From NCBI RefSeq assembly GCF_900106695.1, contig NZ_FNMZ01000001.1:62001-126000 (forward strand): a stretch of 64,000 bases of DNA, written 5' to 3'. Of this stretch, positions 20,122 through 31,353 are shown piece after piece (position 1 is the first letter of the stretch; each line of letters opens with the position of its first letter). Under the pieces are notes generated by a model that saw only the letters and a program-made list of their open reading frames with translations, was not told the DNA's origin and searched no databases. The stretch comes from Albimonas donghaensis (GTDB lineage Bacteria; Pseudomonadota; Alphaproteobacteria; Rhodobacterales; Rhodobacteraceae). The position numbers were made by a program, and so were the translations under genes.

Positions 20122-21705
20122 ATGCGACAGACATCCCTGGCGGCGGCGGCCCTGGCCGCGATCGCCGCCTTTGCGGCAAGTCCGGCTACGGCGCAGGACG
20201 CCGCCGAAAAGCCCAACATCCTGGTGATCTGGGGCGACGATGTCGGCCAGTCCAACATTTCCGCCTACACCATGGGCATGATGGGTTACCGGACCCCCAA
20301 CATCGACCGGATCGCCGAAGAGGGCATGATCTTCACCGACTATTACGGCGAGCAGTCCTGCACCGCCGGCCGGTCGTCCTTCATCATGGGCCAGTCGGTG
20401 TTCCGCACCGGCCTGTCCAAGGTGGGCCTGCCCGGCGCCGATCTGGGCATGCAGGAAGAGGACCCGACCATCGCCGGCATCCTCAAGGCGCAGGGCTACG
20501 ACACCGGGCAGTTCGGCAAGAACCACCTCGGCGATAAGGACGAGCACCTGCCGACCAATCACGGTTTCGACGAGTTCTTCGGCAACCTCTACCACCTCAA
20601 CGCCGAGGAGGAGCCCGAGAACGAGGACTATCCCGGCGAGATGGTGATGGCCGACGGCCAGACCTTCCGCGACAAGTTCGGCCCGCGCGGCGTCATCAAG
20701 TCCTCCGCCGACGGCCAGATCGAAGACACCGGCCCGCTGACCAAGAAGCGCATGCAGACGGTGGACGACGAGACCGTCGCCGCCGCCCTCGACTTCATCG
20801 AGCGCAAGACCGCCGAGGGCACGCCCTGGTTCGTGTGGTGGTCCGGCACCCGCATGCATTTCCGCACCCATGTGAAGCCGGAAATGCGCGAGACCGCCGA
20901 CCAGATGGCCGGCCGCCACCTGGACGAATACCAGGCCGGCATGGTCGAGCATGACCTGCATATCGGCCAGTTCCTCGACAAGCTCGACGAGCTGAACATC
21001 GCCGACGACACGGTGGTGTTCTACTCGACCGACAACGGGCCGCACATGAACACCTGGCCCGACGCGGCGATGACCCCGTTCTGGGGCGAGAAGAACACCC
21101 AGTGGGAAGGCGCCTGGCGCGTCCCCGCCATGGTGCGCTGGCCCGGCCGGATCGAGGAGGGCTCGATCAACAACGAGATCGTGCACCACATGGACTGGCT
21201 CCCGACCTTCGCCGCCATCGCCGGCGAGCCGGAGATCAAGGAAAAGCTGCTGGAAGGCGGCGTCCAGGCCATCGGGCGCGAGTACAAGGTGCATCTCGAC
21301 GGCTACAACATCATGCCGCTGCTGATCGGCGAGGCCGACAAGTCCCCGCGTGAGGAGATCTTCTACTTCACCGATGACGGCGACCTGGCCGCGCTGCGCT
21401 GGAACGACTGGAAGCTGACCTTCCTGGAGCAGAAGGCCTGGGCCACGTTCCGCGCCTGGATGGAGCCGCTGACCGAGCTGCGCGTGCCCCTGATCACCAA
21501 CCTGCGCCGCGATCCCTACGAACGGGCCTACCGCACGTCCAACACCTATTACGACTGGCTGCTGGACCGGGCCTACATGCTGGTGCCGGCCCAGGCCTAT
21601 GTCGGGAACTTCCTGGCCACCTTCCAGGAATTCCCGCCGCGCCAGAAGGCGGCGAGCTTCTCGCTCGACCAGGTGATGGAGAAGATGACGCCCCCGGCCC
21701 AGTGA
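20122..21705 (+). CDS. Exported arylsulfatase 1
   Basis: A 527-residue type I sulfatase with a Sec signal (MRQTSLAAAALAAIAAFAAS...ATAQ). It should hydrolyse sulfate esters in the periplasm, freeing sulfate. The metal-binding start is NILVIWGDDVGQSN (32-45). The formylglycine site is Cys80 in SCTAGRSSF (CxAxR form). Further sulfatase landmarks are GKNHLG, TNHGFDEFFGNLYHLN and STDNGP. The Cys must be oxidised by a formylglycine-generating enzyme, not seen in this window. It heads a same-strand array with a second sulfatase, a HAD phosphatase and a MoxR/Bat module. A 73-bp stretch is identical to the next gene. Confidence 0.92.
   Translation: MRQTSLAAAALAAIAAFAASPATAQDAAEKPNILVIWGDDVGQSNISAYTMGMMGYRTPNIDRIAEEGMIFTDYYGEQSCTAGRSSFIMGQSVFRTGLSKVGLPGADLGMQEEDPTIAGILKAQGYDTGQFGKNHLGDKDEHLPTNHGFDEFFGNLYHLNAEEEPENEDYPGEMVMADGQTFRDKFGPRGVIKSSADGQIEDTGPLTKKRMQTVDDETVAAALDFIERKTAEGTPWFVWWSGTRMHFRTHVKPEMRETADQMAGRHLDEYQAGMVEHDLHIGQFLDKLDELNIADDTVVFYSTDNGPHMNTWPDAAMTPFWGEKNTQWEGAWRVPAMVRWPGRIEEGSINNEIVHHMDWLPTFAAIAGEPEIKEKLLEGGVQAIGREYKVHLDGYNIMPLLIGEADKSPREEIFYFTDDGDLAALRWNDWKLTFLEQKAWATFRAWMEPLTELRVPLITNLRRDPYERAYRTSNTYYDWLLDRAYMLVPAQAYVGNFLATFQEFPPRQKAASFSLDQVMEKMTPPAQ
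20543..20615 (+). repeat. 73-bp tract identical to 22245-22317 (sulfatase paralogues)
   Basis: By eye, 20543-20615 in the first sulfatase and 22245-22317 in the second are identical over 73 bases, third codon positions included, and encode HLPTNHGFDEFFGNLYHLN and a few more residues. Flanking sequence diverges at once. This suggests recent gene conversion between the paralogues. Confidence 0.85.
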
Positions 21706-21817
21706 GCCGGCCCGCGTGATCGCCTGAACGGCGGGCTCCCCGGCCCGTCTTCGGCCGCCCCGTCGCGGGGGCGGCCGACACGCTTGCCCCCTGACCGGGC
21801 ATCCTCTCTCGCACAGG

Positions 21818-23398
21818 ATGAAAGACCTCATGACGCTGGCAAGAACACTCGTCGCGGCCGCCGCCGCGACGCTCGTCTTCGGCGGACCGCTCGCGGCCCA
21901 GGACTCCGAAAAGCCCAATATCCTCGTGATCTGGGGCGACGACATCGGCGTGCACAACATCAGCGCCTACAATCACGGGATCATGGGCTACCAGACCCCG
22001 AACATCGACCGGCTCGCCAAGGAAGGCGCGATGTTCACCGACGCCTACGGCCAGCAGAGCTGCACCGCCGGCCGCGCCGCCTTCATGCTGGGGCAGAGCC
22101 CGTTCCGCACCGGCCTGCTGACCATCGGCATGCCCGGCTCGGACCACGGCATCCCCGACTGGACGCCGACCATCGCCGAGGTGCTCAAGGAGCAGGGCTA
22201 CGCCACCGCGCAGTTCGGCAAGAACCATTTCGGCGACCAGGATCAGCACCTGCCGACCAATCACGGTTTCGACGAGTTCTTCGGCAACCTCTACCACCTC
22301 AACGCCGAGGAGGAGCCGGAGGGCTATTACTACCCCAAGGATCCGGAGTTCCGCGAGAAATACGGCCCCCGCGGCGTCATCAAGTCGACCGCCGACGGCG
22401 AGATCGAGGACACCGGCCCGCTGAACACCAAGCGGATGGAGACCGTGGACGAGGAGTTCCTCGCCGCCGGGCTCGATTTCCTCGAACGGACCACCGCCGA
22501 GGGCAAGCCCTTCTTCATGTGGTTCAACGCCACCCGCATGCACGTCTGGACCCATCTGAAGCCCGAGTCCCAGGGCGTCACCGGCGTCGGGCTCTATCCC
22601 GACGGCATGGTGGAGCATGACGGCCATGTGGGCCAGCTGCTCGACAAGCTCGACGAACTGGGCGTCGCCGACAACACCATCGTCATGTATTCGACCGACA
22701 ACGGCGCCGAGGCCGTGACCTGGCCCGATGGCGGCACCACCCCGTTCCACGGCGAGAAGGGCGACACCTTCGAGGGCGCGTTCCGCGTGCCGCTGCTGGT
22801 GAAATGGCCGGGCGTGCTCGAGGAAGGCACGATCATCAACGACATCGTCGCGCATGAGGACTGGCTGCCGACCTTCGCCGCCGCCGCCGGCGACGCCGAT
22901 GTGGTCGAGAGCATGAAGGCCGGCGCGACCTATAACGGCAAGGAGTTCAAGGTCCATCTCGACGGCTACAACATGATGCCGTTCTTCAGCGGCGAGGTCG
23001 AAGCCGGCCCGCGCAAGGAGATGTTCTACTTCTCCCAGGGGGGGGAGCTGAACGCCGTCCGGGTCGGCCCCTGGAAGACCCATTTCGCGCTGCTCAACGG
23101 CAACATCGCCCAGGCGACGCGCGACGTGACCTCCTGGCCCACGGTCATCAACCTGCGGGCCGATCCCTATGAGAAGGCCTGGCTCGAATCCGGCATGTAC
23201 ATCCGCTGGTATGCGGAGAACACCATGTGGACCTTCGTGCCGGTGCAGGAGACGATCAAGGAGTTCTTCTCGACCTTCGCGGACTATCCCTACCAGGCGG
23301 GGTCGTCGCTGACCGCCGCCAATCTCGGCTACGACACCCTGCGCAACGCGGAGCTGATGAAGCGTCTCGAAGCGCAGGGCTTCAAGCCCAAGCAGTAA
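21818..23398 (+). CDS. Exported arylsulfatase 2
   Basis: A 526-residue paralogue of the upstream sulfatase, with a Sec signal (TLARTLVAAAAATLVFG...LAAQ). It has the metal-binding NILVIWGDDIGVHN and the formylglycine Cys82 in SCTAGRAAF. Other landmarks are GKNHFGDQ, TNHGFDEFFGNLYHLN and STDNGAEA. Two starts are possible: ATG 21818 (AGG directly before it) or ATG 21830 (AGGATGAAAG upstream); the signal peptide works with either. Substrate specificity is unknown; it may differ from the first copy given divergence outside the conserved core. Confidence 0.9.
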   Translation: MKDLMTLARTLVAAAAATLVFGGPLAAQDSEKPNILVIWGDDIGVHNISAYNHGIMGYQTPNIDRLAKEGAMFTDAYGQQSCTAGRAAFMLGQSPFRTGLLTIGMPGSDHGIPDWTPTIAEVLKEQGYATAQFGKNHFGDQDQHLPTNHGFDEFFGNLYHLNAEEEPEGYYYPKDPEFREKYGPRGVIKSTADGEIEDTGPLNTKRMETVDEEFLAAGLDFLERTTAEGKPFFMWFNATRMHVWTHLKPESQGVTGVGLYPDGMVEHDGHVGQLLDKLDELGVADNTIVMYSTDNGAEAVTWPDGGTTPFHGEKGDTFEGAFRVPLLVKWPGVLEEGTIINDIVAHEDWLPTFAAAAGDADVVESMKAGATYNGKEFKVHLDGYNMMPFFSGEVEAGPRKEMFYFSQGGELNAVRVGPWKTHFALLNGNIAQATRDVTSWPTVINLRADPYEKAWLESGMYIRWYAENTMWTFVPVQETIKEFFSTFADYPYQAGSSLTAANLGYDTLRNAELMKRLEAQGFKPKQ

Positions 23399-23496
23399 GG
23401 CGCCGGGCGCCGCGCGCGCCCCTCGCCCCTTTCCGGACAGGCCAGAGACCCGGGCCGCGATCGCGCGGCCCGGGTCCCCCACCGAAGGACGAGCCC

Positions 23497-24512
23497 ATGC
23501 GCCCCAACGCTTCCGTTTCCGCCCAGACCCCCGCCCTGATCCCCGCCCTGATCCCCGCCTGCGTTCTCGCCGCCGCCTTCGCCCTGCCGGGCGCGGCCTC
23601 GGCGGACCCGCTGCCCTCCTGGCGCGATGACGGCGCGCAGGCCCGGATCGAGGCCTTCGTCGAGGCGGTCACCGACCCGGCCTCCGAAGACTACGTGACC
23701 CCCGCCCGCCGCATCGCCGTCTTCGACAATGACGGCACGCTGTGGTCCGAGCAGCCCGCCTATTTCCAGCTGCTCTTCGCGCTGGACGTGCTGAAGACGA
23801 AAGCCGAGGCCGACCCGTCCATCCTCACCTCCGACGTGCTCAAGGCCGCCGCCGCCGGGGACATGGAGGGCATGATGGCCGGCGGCGTGAAGGGCCTGCT
23901 GGAGGTCGTCGACGTCAGCCATGCGGGCATGAGCGTCGAGGCCTTCCAGGCCGACGCCGCCGCATGGCTGGCGGAGACGGCGCACCCGACCTCCGATCTG
24001 CCCTACGCCGCGATGACCTACCAGCCGATGATCGAGCTTCTGTCCTATCTGCGCGACGAGGGGTTCTCGACCTGGATCGTCTCGGGCGGCGGCGTGCATT
24101 TCATCCGCGCCGTGGCCCAGGACGCCTACGGCATCCCGCCCTGGCAGGTGATCGGCTCGCGCGGGAACCTCTCCTACGACGCCGAGGGCAAGGCGTTGAT
24201 GAAGGACGGCGGCGTCAGCCTCGTCGACGACAAGGAGGGCAAGCCGGTCGGCATCGACCAGCAGATCGGCGTGCGCCCGATCCTCGCCGCGGGCAATTCC
24301 GACGGCGATTTCGCCATGCTGGACTACGTGACCGCGGGCGACGGCCCCTCGCTGGGCCTGCTGGTCCACCACACCGACGGCGCGCGCGAATTCGCCTATG
24401 ACCGCGAGGGCCATATCGGCGTGCTGAACCAGGGGCTGGACGAGGCCGAGGGCCGCGGCTGGCTGCTGGTCGACATGAAGGCCGACTGGACCCGCATCTG
24501 GACCGGCGGCGA

Positions 24513-24516
<4 letters not shown>
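23497..24516 (+). CDS. Exported HAD-superfamily phosphatase (phosphoserine-phosphatase-like)
   Basis: A 339-residue protein with an N-terminal signal (about 1-35, hydrophobic with an ALIPALIPA repeat). HAD motif I is VFDNDGTLW, motif II is WIVSGGGVHF and motif IV is GNSDGDFAML. These give the Asp nucleophile and metal site of a small-molecule phosphatase with a helical cap (about 95-190). Export to the periplasm is unusual for this fold but matches the sulfatase neighbours. Its stop overlaps the moxR-type start by ATGA, so it belongs to the same transcript as the MoxR/Bat module. Substrate unknown. Confidence 0.82.
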
Positions 24517-25550
<1,034 letters not shown>

Positions 25551-25570
25551 TCGGCGGAGGGGTTTTCACG

Positions 25571-26572
25571 ATGCGCGACCGCGCCGCTCGAACCCGCCTC
25601 GGCCTCGACGTCCCGCCGCCCCCGGCGGAGGCGGAGGCGGACCCGCGGGTGCATGTCTCCCTCGCCGGGCTGCGGGGGCTGGAGGGGCGGGCGCGCGCGC
25701 TGTCCTTTCTGCCCCGCCAGCCCGCGCGCTCGGCGCTCAACGGCCGGCACGGCTCGCGGATGCGGGGCAGGGGGCTGAACTTCGAGGAGCTGCGCGGCTA
25801 CCTCCCCGGCGACGACATCCGCGCCATCGACTGGAAGGTCACCGCCCGCACCGGCCGCCCCCATGTCCGGGTGATGACCGAGGAACGCGACCGCCCCGCG
25901 CTGATCGTGGTCGATCAGCGCATGTCGATGTTCTTCGGCTCGCGGCTCAACATGAAGTCGGTGACGGCGGCCGAGGCGGCGGCGCTGGCCGCCTTCCGCA
26001 TCCTCGACCAGGGCGACCGGGTGGGCGGCATCGTCTTCGGCGACGAGACCATCGCCGAGATCCGCCCCCAGCGCAGCCGCGCCGCGCTCGACCGTCTGCT
26101 GACCGCGCTGGTCGTCGCCAACGGCGCCCTGCATGCCGAGGCGCCGGCGGTGGCGCCGGTGTCGCTGACCCGCGTGCTGCGGGCGGTGGCGCGGATCGCG
26201 CCGCGCAATCACCTGGTGATCCTGATCTCGGATTTCGACGTGATCGACGACGAGACGCGGCGGCTGGTCTCCACCCTCTCGCGGCGCAATGACCTGGTGC
26301 TGGGCGTGGTCACCGACCCGCTGGCCGAGACGTTGCCCGAGGGCCTGCGCCTGCTGGTCTCGGACGGCGAGCTGCAGGCCGAGGTCGACACCGGCGACCG
26401 CGCCACCCATCGCCGTCTGCGCGACATGGCCGAGGGGCGGCTGGCCGAGGCGCTGGACTGGCAGCGCAGCTTCGGCGTGCCGCTGCTGCCGCTGAGCGCG
26501 GGGGAGGAGACCTTGCCCCAGATGCGCCGCCTGATGGGCCTCGGCCCCGGCCGCGCGGGAGGCGGGCGATGA
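25571..26572 (+). CDS. DUF58 domain protein of MoxR module
   Basis: A 333-residue cytoplasmic protein. The DUF58 signature is GRGLNFEELRGYLPGDDIRA followed by IDWKVTARTGRPHVR. A degenerate VWA-like fold follows, with LIVVDQRMSMFFGS and LVILISDFDVIDD. DUF58 proteins bind the MoxR ATPase and act as adaptor or scaffold. ATG 25571 has GGAGGGG upstream. It ends with an ATGA overlap with the DUF4381 gene. Confidence 0.9.
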   Translation: MRDRAARTRLGLDVPPPPAEAEADPRVHVSLAGLRGLEGRARALSFLPRQPARSALNGRHGSRMRGRGLNFEELRGYLPGDDIRAIDWKVTARTGRPHVRVMTEERDRPALIVVDQRMSMFFGSRLNMKSVTAAEAAALAAFRILDQGDRVGGIVFGDETIAEIRPQRSRAALDRLLTALVVANGALHAEAPAVAPVSLTRVLRAVARIAPRNHLVILISDFDVIDDETRRLVSTLSRRNDLVLGVVTDPLAETLPEGLRLLVSDGELQAEVDTGDRATHRRLRDMAEGRLAEALDWQRSFGVPLLPLSAGEETLPQMRRLMGLGPGRAGGGR

Positions 26573-27204
26573 GCGACGCGGCGCCTGACGCGGGCGCGCC
26601 CGGCGCGGTCCCGCCCGGCGCCCCGGAAACGGGGGCCGGGGCGGCGCCCGGCGCGGGCGTCGCGGTCGAAGCCGGCGCGGACACCACCTCCGCTTCCACC
26701 TCCGCTTCCGGCGCCGATGGTGTCGTGACCCCGCCGGAATCGCTGGTCGGTCTGCTGGACCAGCTCGCCCAGCCGGTTCCGCCGCCGCCGATCTCCATGG
26801 CGCCCCAGACCGCCGGCTGGGCGGTGGCGGGCGTCGTGCTGCTGATCCTTCTGGCCCTGGTCGCGATCCGCGCCGCGCGCCGCCGCCGGGCGAACGCCTA
26901 TCGCCGCGCGGCGCTGGCGGCGCTGGCGCGCGCGGGCGACGATCCGGCGGCGGTCGCCGCCATCCTGCGCCGCACGGCCCTCGTCGCCTATCCGCGCGAG
27001 CAGGTCGCCGGCCTCCATGGCGCCGCATGGCTGCGCTTCCTCGACGAGACCGCCGGCGCCGGGGCGGGCGGCGGTCTCTCCGACGGTCCCGGCGCCGCCC
27101 TGATCGCCGCCCCCTACGCGCCCGGCCCGCACGCGGTCCCCGGCCTCGGCGCCGCGGCGGCCGACTGGGTGCGCCGCCACCGCGCCCCGGAGGCCGTGCG
27201 ATGA
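26569..27204 (+). CDS. DUF4381 membrane protein of MoxR/Bat module
   Basis: A 211-residue protein with an Ala/Gly/Pro-rich N-terminus (1-50). A PPESLVGLLDQLAQPVPPPP segment, one transmembrane helix (WAVAGVVLLILLALVAI, about 84-100) and a C-terminal cytoplasmic part (YRRAALAALARAGDDPAAVA, WLRFLDET) follow. DUF4381 proteins are regularly found between DUF58 and VWA genes in Bat-type operons. It overlaps both neighbours by four bases. Probably anchors the cytoplasmic MoxR-DUF58 pair to the membrane VWA proteins. Confidence 0.85.
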   Translation: MSDAAPDAGAPGAVPPGAPETGAGAAPGAGVAVEAGADTTSASTSASGADGVVTPPESLVGLLDQLAQPVPPPPISMAPQTAGWAVAGVVLLILLALVAIRAARRRRANAYRRAALAALARAGDDPAAVAAILRRTALVAYPREQVAGLHGAAWLRFLDETAGAGAGGGLSDGPGAALIAAPYAPGPHAVPGLGAAAADWVRRHRAPEAVR

Positions 27205-28325
27205 TCTCTCTCGGTCTGCCCTGGGCGCTGGCGCTGGCGCCCCTGCCGCTGCTGATCTGGCGGCTCGTCCCCCCGCATCGCGAACGCGCCTCCGCCCTGC
27301 GCTTCCCCTTCTTCCGCCGCATCGCCGAGGCCGCGGGGGCCGAGCCCCGCCGCGGCGCCGTGGTGCTCGCCCGCTCCCGCCTCCAGATGGGGGCTGCGGC
27401 GCTGGTCTGGCTCTTGCTGGTCGCGGCCCTCGCCGCGCCGGAGCGGGTCGGCGACCCGGTCGAGGTCACCCGCGCCGCGCGCGACGTGGCGCTGGCCATC
27501 GACATTTCGGGCTCCATGGACACGCGCGATTTCGCGACCGAGGACGGCCCGCCCCAGCAGCGCCTCGCCGCCGTGCGCGACGTGGTCTCCGACTTCGTGG
27601 CGGGGCGGGAAGGCGACCGCATGGCGCTGATCGTGTTCGGCTCCAAGGCCTATCTTCAGGCGCCGCTGACCGAGGACCTGTCGGCCATCGAGGAGCTGCT
27701 GGCGCGCACCGAGGTCGGCATGGCCGGGCCGCATACCGCGCTGGGCGACGCCATCGGGCTGGCGATCCGGACCTTCGAGGCCTCGGAGATCGAGCAGCGC
27801 CTGCTGATCCTGCTTTCGGACGGCGCCGACACCGCCAGCCGGATGAGCCCGGTCAACGCCGCCGAGATCGCCGCGGATCGGGGGGTGGAGATCCATACCA
27901 TCGGCGTCGGCGACCCCGAGGCCTCGGGCGAGGACCGGGTGGACCTGGACGCGCTGAAGGACATCGCGGCGCGCACCGGGGGGCGGTATTTCTTCGCCGG
28001 AGACGCCGACGCGCTGGAGGCGGTATACGCAAGCATCGACGCGCTCGCCCCGCGGGAGGTGGAGACCCTGTCCTGGCGGCCCCGGCAGGCGCTGGCCTGG
28101 ATCCCGCTGACCGCCGCGGCGCTGATCGGCATGGCCGCCACCGCCGCCCTGCATCTGGGCGCCGCCGGGGGCGGGCTGCGCGCGGGCGGGGGCGGGCTGC
28201 GCGCGGGCGGGGGGCGTCGGGGCCGGGACCGGGCCGGGACCGACATCGCGCCCGCAGCCGGGCCAGAAGCCGGGCCCGAACCCAGGCCCGAAGCCGGGCC
28301 CGAATCCAGAGAGGACGCGGCGTGA
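27201..28325 (+). CDS. VWA-domain membrane protein, BatA-like
   Basis: A 374-residue membrane protein with an N-terminal helix pair (about 1-20 and 60-80) and a C-terminal helix (about 293-315) around a VWA domain. The metal-ion-dependent adhesion site is complete: DISGS, a Thr in GPHTALGD, and SDGAD. The domain should lie in the periplasm and bind proteins through a divalent ion. The last 55 residues are low-complexity, with GGGLRAG repeated twice and a run of Pro-Glu-Ala-Gly motifs, and are not part of the family core. Start overlaps the DUF4381 stop (ATGA). Confidence 0.88.
   Translation: MISLGLPWALALAPLPLLIWRLVPPHRERASALRFPFFRRIAEAAGAEPRRGAVVLARSRLQMGAAALVWLLLVAALAAPERVGDPVEVTRAARDVALAIDISGSMDTRDFATEDGPPQQRLAAVRDVVSDFVAGREGDRMALIVFGSKAYLQAPLTEDLSAIEELLARTEVGMAGPHTALGDAIGLAIRTFEASEIEQRLLILLSDGADTASRMSPVNAAEIAADRGVEIHTIGVGDPEASGEDRVDLDALKDIAARTGGRYFFAGDADALEAVYASIDALAPREVETLSWRPRQALAWIPLTAAALIGMAATAALHLGAAGGGLRAGGGGLRAGGGRRGRDRAGTDIAPAAGPEAGPEPRPEAGPESREDAA
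28167..28208 (+). repeat. 21-bp tandem duplication encoding a 7-residue repeat
   Basis: Two exact 21-bp units (28167-28187 and 28188-28208) encode consecutive GGGLRAG repeats in the C-terminal tail of the BatA-like protein. A second imperfect repeat region encoding Pro-Glu-Ala-Gly units follows at about 28257-28310. Confidence 0.8.
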
Positions 28326-29920
28326 CCGACCCGGCCCTGTTCCTCGAGGCGTTCCACTTCCTGCGCCCCTGGCTGCTGGTCCTGCTGCCGGTGATCGCGG
28401 CGCTGTGGTGGGCCGCCCGGCGCGGGCGGCTGCGGGCGGAGACGGGGGCGCAGGCCCTCGCCCCCCATCTGCGCGCCGCGCTGACCGTGGGCGCGGCCTC
28501 GCGCCGCCGCCTGCGCCCGCTCGACGGCGCGGCGATGGCCTTCGCGCTGGCCGCGCTGGGCGCCGCCGGGCCGACCTGGTCCCGCGTCCCCGACCCCTTC
28601 GCCGCGCAATCCGCGCCGGTGGCCGCGATCCTGAAGGTCGCGCCCTCGATGACCGCGGGCGACGTCGCGCCCTCGCGGCTGGAGCGGGGCAAGCAGAAGA
28701 TCCGCGGCTTTCTCGAACGTCGCGCCGGCGCGCGCACCGCGCTGATCGCCTATGCCGGCACGGCCCACAGCGTGGTCCCGATGACCGAGGACCCGGACGT
28801 CATGACCCCCTATCTCGGCGCCCTGACGCCCGAGGTGATGCCGGAGGCGGGCGACCGGGCCGGCGAGGCGCTGGCGCTCGCGCTCGCCATGCTAGCGCAG
28901 GAGAACGCGCCGGGCGGGGTGCTGCTGGTGACCGACGCGATCGACCCGGCGGATGTCGCCGCGCTGAACGCCGCCGGGGCGCCGCTGGCGGTGCTCGCCC
29001 TGCTGCCCGAGGGCGTGCGCGACCGCGGGATCGACGCGCTGGACGCGCCGGTGGCGCAGGTCACGCCCGATGACGCGGATCTCGCCCGGCTGGAGCGCGC
29101 GCTGGACGCCGCCTGGCGCCGGGCGCAGCTGGAGAACGCCGAGCAGCCCTGGGAGGACCGGGGCCGCTGGCTGGCCTGGCCGGCGGCGGCGCTGACGCTG
29201 ATCTGGTTCCGCCGCGGCTGGACCATGCGCTGGGCGGCGCTGGCGCTGGTCGTCGCCGGGGCGGCCTTCGCGCCCGGGGGCGCGCGGGCCGAGGGGATCG
29301 CGGACTGGTTCCTCACCCCCGACCAGCAGGGCGAGCTCGCCGCCCGGCGCGGGGATTTCCACGCGGCCTCGGACCTTTACGCCGACCCGCTGCATCGCGG
29401 CTACGCGCTCTACCGCGCCGGGCGCTACGCCGAGGCGCGCGAGGTTCTGGCCCGCCTCTCCACCCCCGAAGCCGCCTTCATCCAGGGCCTCGCCGCGATC
29501 CGCGACCACGCCTATCGCAACGGCGTCCGCGCGTTCGAGACCACGCTGGAGCGCGACCCGGACTTCGCCGACGCGGCGGCCAACCTGGCGCTGGCCAAAC
29601 GCATCGTGACCTATGTGGAGGACGCGCAGGAACAGTCGGACACCGGCGAGCAGCCGGACCTGAGGGCCGACGAGGAGACCTACGACAACGAGGCGAACCG
29701 CGGCCAGGAGATGGAGGCGCCCGCCCCTGGCGACAAGGCCGAGGCCATGCCCTCGACCGAGCAGTGGATGAACGCCGTGGACACCCGCCCCGCCGATTTC
29801 CTGCGCCAGCGTTTCGCGCTGGAGGCGGCCCGGGGGCCGGCCGCGGACAACGCCGCGTCGGCGCCCGACCCGTCTGCCGGGCCCGCCCCCGGCGCCGCTG
29901 GACAGGAGGCGCCGGAATGA
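28322..29920 (+). CDS. VWA/TPR membrane protein, BatB-BatC-like, degenerate metal site
   Basis: A 532-residue protein that fuses a membrane-anchored VWA domain (about 95-240) to a second helix (about 300-320) and a TPR region (about 335-430). Family BatB proteins carry DxSxS at the metal site. Here the segment reads KVAPS (105-109), keeping GDVAPSRLERGKQKI after it but losing the Asp and first Ser, and the Thr loop is GDRAGEALA. The VWA fold is therefore probably metal-free. The TPR part (LYRAGRYAEAREVLARLS, FADAAANLALAKRI) matches BatC. An acidic tail follows. GTG start overlaps the upstream stop (GTGA). Confidence 0.82.
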   Translation: MTDPALFLEAFHFLRPWLLVLLPVIAALWWAARRGRLRAETGAQALAPHLRAALTVGAASRRRLRPLDGAAMAFALAALGAAGPTWSRVPDPFAAQSAPVAAILKVAPSMTAGDVAPSRLERGKQKIRGFLERRAGARTALIAYAGTAHSVVPMTEDPDVMTPYLGALTPEVMPEAGDRAGEALALALAMLAQENAPGGVLLVTDAIDPADVAALNAAGAPLAVLALLPEGVRDRGIDALDAPVAQVTPDDADLARLERALDAAWRRAQLENAEQPWEDRGRWLAWPAAALTLIWFRRGWTMRWAALALVVAGAAFAPGGARAEGIADWFLTPDQQGELAARRGDFHAASDLYADPLHRGYALYRAGRYAEAREVLARLSTPEAAFIQGLAAIRDHAYRNGVRAFETTLERDPDFADAAANLALAKRIVTYVEDAQEQSDTGEQPDLRADEETYDNEANRGQEMEAPAPGDKAEAMPSTEQWMNAVDTRPADFLRQRFALEAARGPAADNAASAPDPSAGPAPGAAGQEAPE

Positions 29921-31353
29921 GCCTTCGCGCCTCGCGTCTCGTCGTCGCCGCGGTTCTCGCCGCTTCGGCCGTCTCCGGCTCCGCCGCCGCCCAGGGCCGC
30001 AGCGCCGAGCAGATCGAGGCCAACCGCGAGGCGGTGGCCCGCGGCGCCGACAGCGCCCCCGCGGCCGCCGCCGAAACGGCGCCGACCCGGCCGATCCTGC
30101 GTCTGGACCTCGACGCCGCCGAGGCCGTGCCCGGCCAGCCCCTGACCCTGCGCCTCACGGTTCTGGTCCCGACCTTCATGCCCAGGCCCCCGGACTGGCC
30201 GGATTTCGAGGCGCCCAACCTGCTGGTCCGCCTGCCGGGCCGCGCCACGTCGCCGGTCAGCGAGCGGGTGGGGGCGGAGACCTGGTCCGGCGTCTCGCGC
30301 CGCTGGCGGATCGCGCCGATGATCCCCGGCGACATCCCGGTCCCCGCGCAGGAGGTGCGCGTCACCTGGTCCGATCCCGACGGGGGCGAGGACCTGACCG
30401 CCGACCTGCCCGTGGACGCCGTCACCTTCCGCGGCGTGGTTCCCGAGGGTGCCGAGGGGCTCGATCCCTTCATCGCCGCCTCGGGCCTCAGGCTGGAACG
30501 CCTGGTCGAGCCTGCGGGCGACGCCGCCGGGGCCGACCCCGACGCGCCGGGGCAGGGCATGGCGCCGGGGGACAGCGTGACCGTCACCCTCACCGCGACG
30601 GTGGAGGGGGTGTCGCCGATCTTTCTCCCCACGCTCGCGCCCCCCGCCGCGATCCCCGGCCTCGCCGCCTATCCCGACCCGCCGCAGGTGAGCGAGACCG
30701 ACGGTCGCGACGGGCCGGGGGGCGCGCGGGTCGAGCGCATGTCGCTGGTCGCCGAGGGCGGCGGGGCGGGCGAGCTTCCGGCCGTGACCCTGCGATGGTT
30801 CGACCTTGATGCCGGAGAGGTGCGCGAGGCCACGGTCCCGGCCGTGCCGCTTTCGGTCGACGGGCCGCCGGCGCGGGCGGCGGCGGCGCCGCGGGACTGG
30901 GCGAGCCTCGCGGTCCGGGGCGCGGCGGCGCTGGCCGGGCTGGCGCTGCTGGTCGGCCTGGCGCGGCTGGCCGGCCCGCCGCTGGGCCGGTCGCTGGCGG
31001 CGCGGCGGGCGGGGCGGCTGGCGTCGGAGGCCCATGCCTGGGCCGGATTGCGCCGGGTCGTCGCGGCGCGCGACCATGCCGCCCTGCGCCCGGTGCTGGA
31101 CCTTTGGGCGGGACGGGTGGCGGGGGCGGATCCGCGCCGGGACCCGGCGGTTTCCGCGGCGCTCCTGCAACTCGGCGCCGCGCGCTACGGCGCGGCCGAA
31201 GGGGGGGCGAAAGGTAGGGCGAAGGGCGGGGCGGAAGAGGCCGAGGCCGCCGCCTGGGCCGCGCTCGCCGCCGCCTTGCCCGCCGCGCGCCGTCAGGGAC
31301 GAGACGGCGGAGGCGGGGACGCCGCCGCGCTTCCGCCGCTCAACCCGGTGTGA
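29917..31353 (+). CDS. BatD-like exported membrane protein
   Basis: A 478-residue protein with a signal (MSLRASRLVVAAVLAASAVSG...AQ). A beta-rich periplasmic region (about 45-320, PGQPLTLRLTVLVPTFMPRPP near its start) and a transmembrane helix (about 331-352) come next. A helical cytoplasmic tail ends the protein. BatD is the large exported member of Bat operons and presumably contacts client proteins at the membrane. ATG 29917 has AGGAGG upstream and overlaps the preceding stop. It appears to be the last gene of the sulfatase/MoxR array. Confidence 0.8.
   Translation: MSLRASRLVVAAVLAASAVSGSAAAQGRSAEQIEANREAVARGADSAPAAAAETAPTRPILRLDLDAAEAVPGQPLTLRLTVLVPTFMPRPPDWPDFEAPNLLVRLPGRATSPVSERVGAETWSGVSRRWRIAPMIPGDIPVPAQEVRVTWSDPDGGEDLTADLPVDAVTFRGVVPEGAEGLDPFIAASGLRLERLVEPAGDAAGADPDAPGQGMAPGDSVTVTLTATVEGVSPIFLPTLAPPAAIPGLAAYPDPPQVSETDGRDGPGGARVERMSLVAEGGGAGELPAVTLRWFDLDAGEVREATVPAVPLSVDGPPARAAAAPRDWASLAVRGAAALAGLALLVGLARLAGPPLGRSLAARRAGRLASEAHAWAGLRRVVAARDHAALRPVLDLWAGRVAGADPRRDPAVSAALLQLGAARYGAAEGGAKGRAKGGAEEAEAAAWAALAAALPAARRQGRDGGGGDAAALPPLNPV

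Follow-up and report, generated by a model that had tools for sequence, protein, structure and literature searches.

A MoxR/Bat gene block kept beside exported type I sulfatases in Albimonas donghaensis and other bacteria: a candidate sulfatase-maturation module

In a 64,000-nucleotide stretch of the Albimonas donghaensis genome (contig NZ_FNMZ01000001.1, positions 62,001 to 126,000 of the forward strand; hereafter the window), we found nine in-frame genes on the + strand at 20122-31353 that join two exported type I sulfatases and an exported HAD-type hydrolase to a MoxR/Bat block, and comparison across genomes indicates that this block is very probably dedicated to sulfatases. The gene content is as the preliminary description of this DNA had it: two exported sulfatases, an exported HAD protein, and MoxR, DUF58, DUF4381, VWA, VWA/TPR, and BatD genes, all on one strand. 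Sulfatase 1 (20122..21705, PF00884 E 4e-49) and sulfatase 2 (21818..23398, PF00884 E 4.6e-49) each carry a signal-like N-terminus and a CTAGR motif. They are followed by the HAD-type hydrolase (23497..24516, PF12710 E 5e-12), the MoxR AAA+ ATPase (24513..25550, PF07726 E 2.6e-64), the DUF58 protein (25571..26572, PF01882 E 3.4e-38), the DUF4381 protein (26569..27204, PF14316 E 2.8e-29, with one membrane span predicted by eye), a BatA-like membrane VWA protein (27201..28325, PF00092 E 1.9e-20), a BatB-like membrane VWA/TPR protein (28322..29920, PF13519 E 2.5e-11, with weak TPR matches below cut-off), and a BatD-like protein (29917..31353). The starts at 23497, 25571, 27201, and 29917 are corrected ones. 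Pfam thus assigned Sulfatase (two proteins), HAD, AAA_3/MoxR, DUF58, DUF4381, VWA, and VWA_2; the ninth protein had no Pfam match and was recognized by BLAST to proteins at BatD-annotated places, aligning with those annotated 'BatD family' at the equivalent place in other loci.

Five of the six junctions from the HAD gene to the BatD gene are 4-nt overlaps and the sixth, from MoxR to DUF58, is a 20-nt gap, so that the overlaps described earlier are there, while their count is nearer 'all but one' than the 'all but two' originally given. This overlapping arrangement suggests one transcript. Upstream, 112 nt separate the two sulfatase genes and 98 nt separate sulfatase 2 from the HAD gene; downstream, a TonB receptor (32853) and an MFS gene (35006) appear to form a unit of their own. 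The ATPase belongs to the MoxR AAA+ family by its core domain, its lid (PF17863, 5.9e-20), and the VWA genes that follow it among the overlapping genes, and the presence of MoxR, DUF58, a VWA pair with TPR, and BatD marks a Bat (BatA/BatB/BatD) operon, to which the NCBIfam BatA and BatB Leptospira models match, but under their cut-offs.

Both sulfatases are of type I (S1), with PF00884 over cut-off, the C/S-x-[PA]-x-R motif, and catalytic and metal-ligand residues in place. Across 144 aligned sulfatase rows D39, D40, D304, N305, R84, K133, H135, H246, and K324 were invariant, columns which we take to have catalytic and metal-ligand roles, and the residue at the CTAGR position was Cys in 141 rows and Ser in 3. 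No residue in this alignment cleanly divided sulfatases linked to a MoxR block from unlinked ones, where linked means that a BLAST-defined sulfatase lay within 10.5 kb, loci cut by a contig end being scored as unlinked. Sulfatase 2 represents a second subfamily that is found elsewhere too beside MoxR blocks, and all five of its closest rows in the sulfatase tree were linked. For the HAD protein, the closest solved chain was 4ovy_A (E 1.1e-87); it accompanies these sulfatases even where the block is lacking, in 27 of the 67 unlinked rows, and is present in 40 of the 75 linked ones. The first VWA protein has the full residue set of a metal ion-dependent adhesion site (MIDAS), with D101, S103, S105, T179, and D207 invariant across 15 rows. 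In the second, the first MIDAS Asp is absent from the window copy, the alignment placing KVAPS where DxSxS would stand; several of its relatives do keep an Asp at that position. The AlphaFold2 model of the BatD-like protein (mean predicted local distance difference test score 86.5, predicted template-modelling (TM) score 0.60) comprises a signal-like N-terminus, beta domains, a long helix with a predicted membrane span, and a helical tail; it had no specific relative in the PDB, the top matches being mostly Ig-like domains with TM-scores <0.3.

We found the sulfatase and the block together far more often than expected by chance. Among 100 genomes of the family, 17 had a homologue of sulfatase 1 (E 1e-60), 14 had DUF4381, and 11 had both, compared to an expected 2.4 (hypergeometric p 2.6e-8, uncorrected for kinship). 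The two genes were adjacent in 8 of these 11; in G005 and G094 they lay far apart or on different contigs, and in G013 the intact sulfatase was distant and sulfatase fragments adjoined the block. At locus L142, fragments of a same-family sulfatase lie beside the block, with an intact homologue elsewhere in that genome. DUF4381 without the sulfatase occurred in G009, G072, and G087. A scan of the contigs of named genomes yielded at least 586 loci, of which the best 80, leaning to close relatives, were kept. Of these, 79 have an intact sulfatase row, and 27 of the 79 have MoxR no more than 10.5 kb from the sulfatase; L056, L078, L088, and L111 were scored as unlinked as their MoxR match fell below a later threshold. 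L066 (no intact sulfatase row), L070 (truncated), and L071 (same genome as L042) were left out of the co-occurrence and signal counts. The linked named loci came from alpha- and gammaproteobacteria (Halomonas, Vibrio, Shewanella, and Photobacterium among them), Verrucomicrobiota (Rubritalea), Kiritimatiellota, and Bacteroidota, and further single loci came from metagenome-assembled genomes with the labels Desulfobacteraceae and Caldithrix, where misbinning is possible. After leaving out repeats (L143-L147 and L071) from the arrangement and sulfatase-tree set, 60 loci held both elements. In 44 of them the sulfatase gene lay upstream of MoxR on the same strand; 10 had it downstream of the block, and the remaining 6 had it on the opposite strand. 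Because several gene arrangements occur among these 60 loci (four, as assigned by script), the linkage between sulfatase and block has outlived rearrangement.

Approaching the question from MoxR, in a sampling chosen to avoid looking only near sulfatases, we found the linkage to be confined to one part of the MoxR tree. The 108 MoxRs comprised ten plasmid loci, 80 phylum loci, 17 further copies from genomes with multiple matches, and the window. For the plasmid sample, loci were chosen by hand among the 60 listed from 104 records, and three of those chosen (H62, H119, and H76) sat on records already known to carry the sulfatase; the phylum loci were hand-picked among the matches listed for 177 genomes, mostly top-ranked and then spread. 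An intact sulfatase was present in 9 of the 10 plasmid stretches fetched (20-25 kb) and in 18 of the 80 phylum loci. The plasmid exception, L152 of Cupriavidus metallidurans CH34, had no sulfatase of the window family within the 25 kb fetched; its block comes with a formylglycine-generating enzyme (FGE) and a HAD protein, and its MoxR and DUF58 genes stand apart from the rest. In the tree, a single clade of 41 MoxRs, the window's included (support 100 in the SH-like approximate likelihood ratio test), held all 35 linked members, compared to none of the 67 outside it. Broken down by sample, linked and unlinked clade members versus unlinked outsiders numbered 18/4 versus 58 in the first eighty, 7/1 versus 9 in the further copies, and 9/1 versus 0 on the plasmids, the window adding one linked member; with the window and all ten plasmid loci removed, 25 of 30 clade MoxRs were linked versus 0 of 67 outside. 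The contrast also held within genomes: in the 16 sampled genomes with both kinds of MoxR, the outside copy was unlinked in all 16 and a clade copy was linked in 14. Neither copy was linked in G514 and G517, and G526 had one unlinked clade MoxR alongside two linked clade copies. A larger tree that added the sulfatase-first loci, and is biased by that collection, had 63 of 73 clade members linked.

The sulfatases of these loci appear to be exported. Of the scorable linked sulfatases, 64 of 67 passed a simple N-terminal hydrophobicity threshold, and the other three, as well as the unscorable ones, had a signal-like or lipoprotein-like stretch by eye. In the sulfatase-first set, none of 11 signal-less sulfatases (a list made by eye) was linked, compared to 45 of the 101 others (Fisher p 0.003).

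The gene set of the block resembles the accessory genes of methanol dehydrogenase, of which mxaA, mxaK, and mxaL are required for calcium insertion. As reference we used one mxa locus, Methyloceanibacter L134, found by PF02315 among 45 genomes and with Mxa names assigned by position, and compared it by hmmsearch and by hhalign among seven profiles, using profiles that left out the mxa row. By hmmsearch, L134 contained homologues of MoxR (1.5e-57), DUF58 (4e-17), and two VWA proteins (3e-17 and 3.9e-10), and hhalign matched MxaC and MxaL to VWA at 99.5 and 98%. More weakly, and for this one locus, MxaA matched best with BatD (74%) and MxaK with the C-terminal TPR-bearing part of the VWA/TPR protein (22%). 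PF02315 (MxaI) itself matched none of 142 genomes of the class nor the window genome, G000, in a search that had no positive-control match; it did match in G144 in a later search whose sample did not include G000.

Taken together, these observations lead us to propose that the nine genes form a sulfatase-maturation module. A MoxR hexamer and DUF58 in the cytoplasm would be coupled, via the membrane proteins DUF4381, VWA, VWA/TPR, and BatD, to exported CTAGR sulfatases, so that ATP use could drive their remodelling at the membrane. The likely outcome would be the opening or filling of their conserved divalent-metal (Ca2+) site, which would complete activation after export, with formylglycine formation as a separate step that FGE or the anaerobic sulfatase-maturating enzyme (anSME) would perform where present. 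We infer the physical action on the sulfatase, the metal as cargo, and the topology, and for the ATP-driven opening or filling of the metal site we rely on the mxa parallel, on NorQ/NorD, on the conserved metal-ligand columns, and on the MIDAS of the first VWA protein. For the explanation as a whole, a dedicated machine including the metal step, the balance of evidence tips modestly in favour. The preliminary description had proposed a functional coupling of block and sulfatase, and a survey of co-occurrence in other genomes did not refute it: synteny that is conserved though rearranged, together with a MoxR clade found almost solely at such loci, supports the coupling strongly. From its suggestion that the machine 'folds, metallates or exports' sulfatases, metallating or folding is the best fit, given the parallel between the block and the calcium accessory genes of mxa, while an export role is unlikely because the sulfatases have ordinary N-terminal signal-like sequences.

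Several observations weigh against a maturation module of this kind. Six of the 17 sulfatase-bearing family genomes had no DUF4381 match, and in two of these (G036 and G083) an FGE gene lies beside the sulfatase; on the sulfatase tree, linkage switches at least 20 (starred branches) to 31 times. These sulfatases can therefore exist without an adjacent block, and the block seems more closely attached to the sulfatase than the sulfatase is to the block. Within the MoxR clade, 6 of 41 members had no sulfatase in the fetched stretch, and the larger, collection-biased tree contained one linked MoxR outside the clade (L132). The signal-less sulfatases trace to a single change on the tree, which reduces the export correlation to one evolutionary event, and we dropped the signal sequence as strong independent proof in spite of its Fisher p value. 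As for the mxa parallel, DUF4381 had no clear counterpart in L134 by hhalign, the BatD profile found none there by hmmsearch, and the MxaA and MxaK matches are weak ones from hhalign alone at one locus.

A less likely reading, which nonetheless deserves consideration, is that the block serves the exported sulfatase, and perhaps the HAD protein too, as a dedicated folding or assembly chaperone that loads no metal and, by ATP-driven remodelling, helps its client to fold, oligomerize, or attach at the inner membrane. The same linkage evidence would serve it, a passage of PMC12657314 describes the MoxR/VWA pair CbbQ/CbbO as remodelling its target rather than inserting a metal, and the BatD model, which combines beta domains with a long helix and has no specific relative among solved structures, would suit a chaperone. 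Set against this are the calcium enzyme served by mxa, the closest characterized architecture, and the conserved metal ligands of the sulfatases, although both are compatible with folding as well.

We consider it improbable that the linkage is ecological or regulatory only, with an envelope-stress module travelling together with genes for sulfate-ester utilization. Many of the loci are indeed plasmid-borne or in marine bacteria, and a MoxR of another bacterium has been studied in connection with stress tolerance. Yet the linkage tracks one MoxR clade and one sulfatase family, with other MoxR/Bat blocks of the same genomes not near these sulfatases; it has been kept in four arrangements; and the overlapping genes of the window suggest a single transcript.

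Might the block instead replace a missing maturase, by oxidizing the CTAGR cysteine to formylglycine or by supporting another maturase? The window genome would seem to invite this notion. Its assembly (5.0 Mb, 30 contigs, 98% complete) holds three Cys-type sulfatases, the two at the locus and a choline-sulfatase-like gene with a CAPAR motif (L003), which adjoins an apparent aldehyde dehydrogenase by eye. PF03781, the FGE domain, matches none of the nine locus proteins, and the earlier observation that the window lacks an FGE extends to the whole assembly, with no match to PF03781 or to the anSME model TIGR03942 at E 0.001. PF03781 was likewise not found at E 0.001 in 5 of the 17 sulfatase-bearing family genomes (G000, G005, G031, G034, and G094), and among these 17 only G007 had an anSME over cut-off. 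The near-complete relatives G005, G031, G034, and G094 thus carry this sulfatase with neither a PF03781 match nor an anSME over cut-off. Hence, the absence of FGE is not merely a matter of assembly. Of the 50 genomes searched behind the 80 named loci, their completeness not stated, 6 had neither PF03781 at 1e-20 nor an anSME over cut-off. The linked genomes G100 and G104 lack both by these thresholds. PF03781 takes in non-FGE proteins too, so that a match does not establish an FGE.

A replacement of the maturase is nevertheless very doubtful, since many loci have FGE or anSME genes together with the block. In L149, L150, L151, and L156, block and sulfatase share one gene run with an FGE that has both active-site cysteines, and in all three loci with a linked Ser-type (STAGR) sulfatase (L094, L213, and L225) an anSME gene sits between the sulfatase and MoxR. 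In total, BLAST matches put an FGE relative together with block and sulfatase at 12 loci, with only 30% identity in L200 and with L162, L166, L167, L168, and L236 counted without a cysteine check. Conversely, the FGE-less genomes G031 and G034 have the sulfatase and no DUF4381 match. First hints of an exchange had come from the window genome without FGE and from L039 and L046, where an FGE stands in place of the block; with co-resident FGE relatives and FGE-less genomes that lack DUF4381, we rejected the block as an FGE replacement. The block is linked to sulfatases of both the Cys and the Ser type. Because the maturase differs between loci whereas the block persists, forming formylglycine is most likely not what the block does. 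The least probable reading that we considered, and one to which we give hardly any credence, is that in genomes such as the window's, with these Cys-type sulfatases and no recognizable FGE or anSME, the MoxR/Bat block and the exported HAD protein are part of a third, periplasmic route of sulfatase activation that includes cysteine oxidation.

A few maturase-like proteins near these loci and in related genomes are worth recording. In Vibrio, an FGE-like lipoprotein is encoded beside an anSME, near the block (L143:17235-18071, L144:11087-11926, and L147:7607-8398), and in L143 and L144 its motif has neither active-site cysteine. FGEs with both cysteines and a signal-like, lipoprotein-like, or membrane N-terminus occur at L039:7500-8474, L098:8895-9956, L114:812-1963, and L152:6596-8125, which suggests formylglycine formation outside the cytoplasm. 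Radical SAM proteins scoring ~110-117 bits to the anSME model, far below its cut-off, were found at G078:C53:42300-43304, G104:C2:24312-25316, G126:C30:35544-36551, and G133:C61:14995-15999; these are possibly a related maturase family.

Maturation of type I sulfatases is usually given as a single event, the conversion of Cys or Ser to formylglycine. That a dedicated ATPase/VWA membrane block has persisted beside exported sulfatases across several phyla implies that activation involves one more step; in the open-access papers searched, a set that leaves out most subscription papers, we found no published assay for it. The same literature yielded no paper on a link between MoxR and sulfatases and, at record level, nothing on topic for DUF4381 or CTAGR; in PMC7159879, the single sulfatase passage deals with an FGE-like domain. 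Such a step could account for the poor activity of some sulfatases when expressed without their native genes, and it could supply orphan Bat-type blocks with a testable client and the MoxR family with a sulfatase client. In addition, the genomes without a recognizable FGE or anSME make other routes to formylglycine directly testable.

Compared with known systems, the locus would be a MoxR/VWA maturation block of known type with the sulfatase as a new client. Like mxaRSACKL, which in Methylobacterium extorquens falls within the order mxaFJGIRSACKLDEHB according to a passage of PMC6414531, it combines MoxR, DUF58, and two VWA proteins in the same type of operon. The likeness extends to the probable client, a periplasmic enzyme, which in the mxa case is said to require calcium insertion. 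Unlike mxaRSACKL, the present block has a sulfatase as its neighbour, a fusion of VWA and TPR, and a DUF4381 protein without a detected counterpart. Other MoxR/DUF58/DUF4381/VWA/BatD blocks have, in most of the stretches examined, the same genes in the same order, but their MoxRs fall outside the sulfatase-linked clade and none of 67 lay within 10.5 kb of this sulfatase family. Passages of PMC9976466 and PMC12657314 describe NorQ/NorD, RavA/ViaA, and other pairs in which, as here, a MoxR ATPase with a VWA partner acts on an enzyme, often a metalloenzyme, and in the former, iron insertion needs the NorQ ATPase and the NorD MIDAS; those systems are described as an ATPase with its VWA partner, whereas here six proteins, including BatD and DUF4381, make up a membrane block. 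FGE and anSME, finally, are likewise gene neighbours of these sulfatases, some inside the same loci, but they make formylglycine, and the MoxR/Bat block is additional to them.

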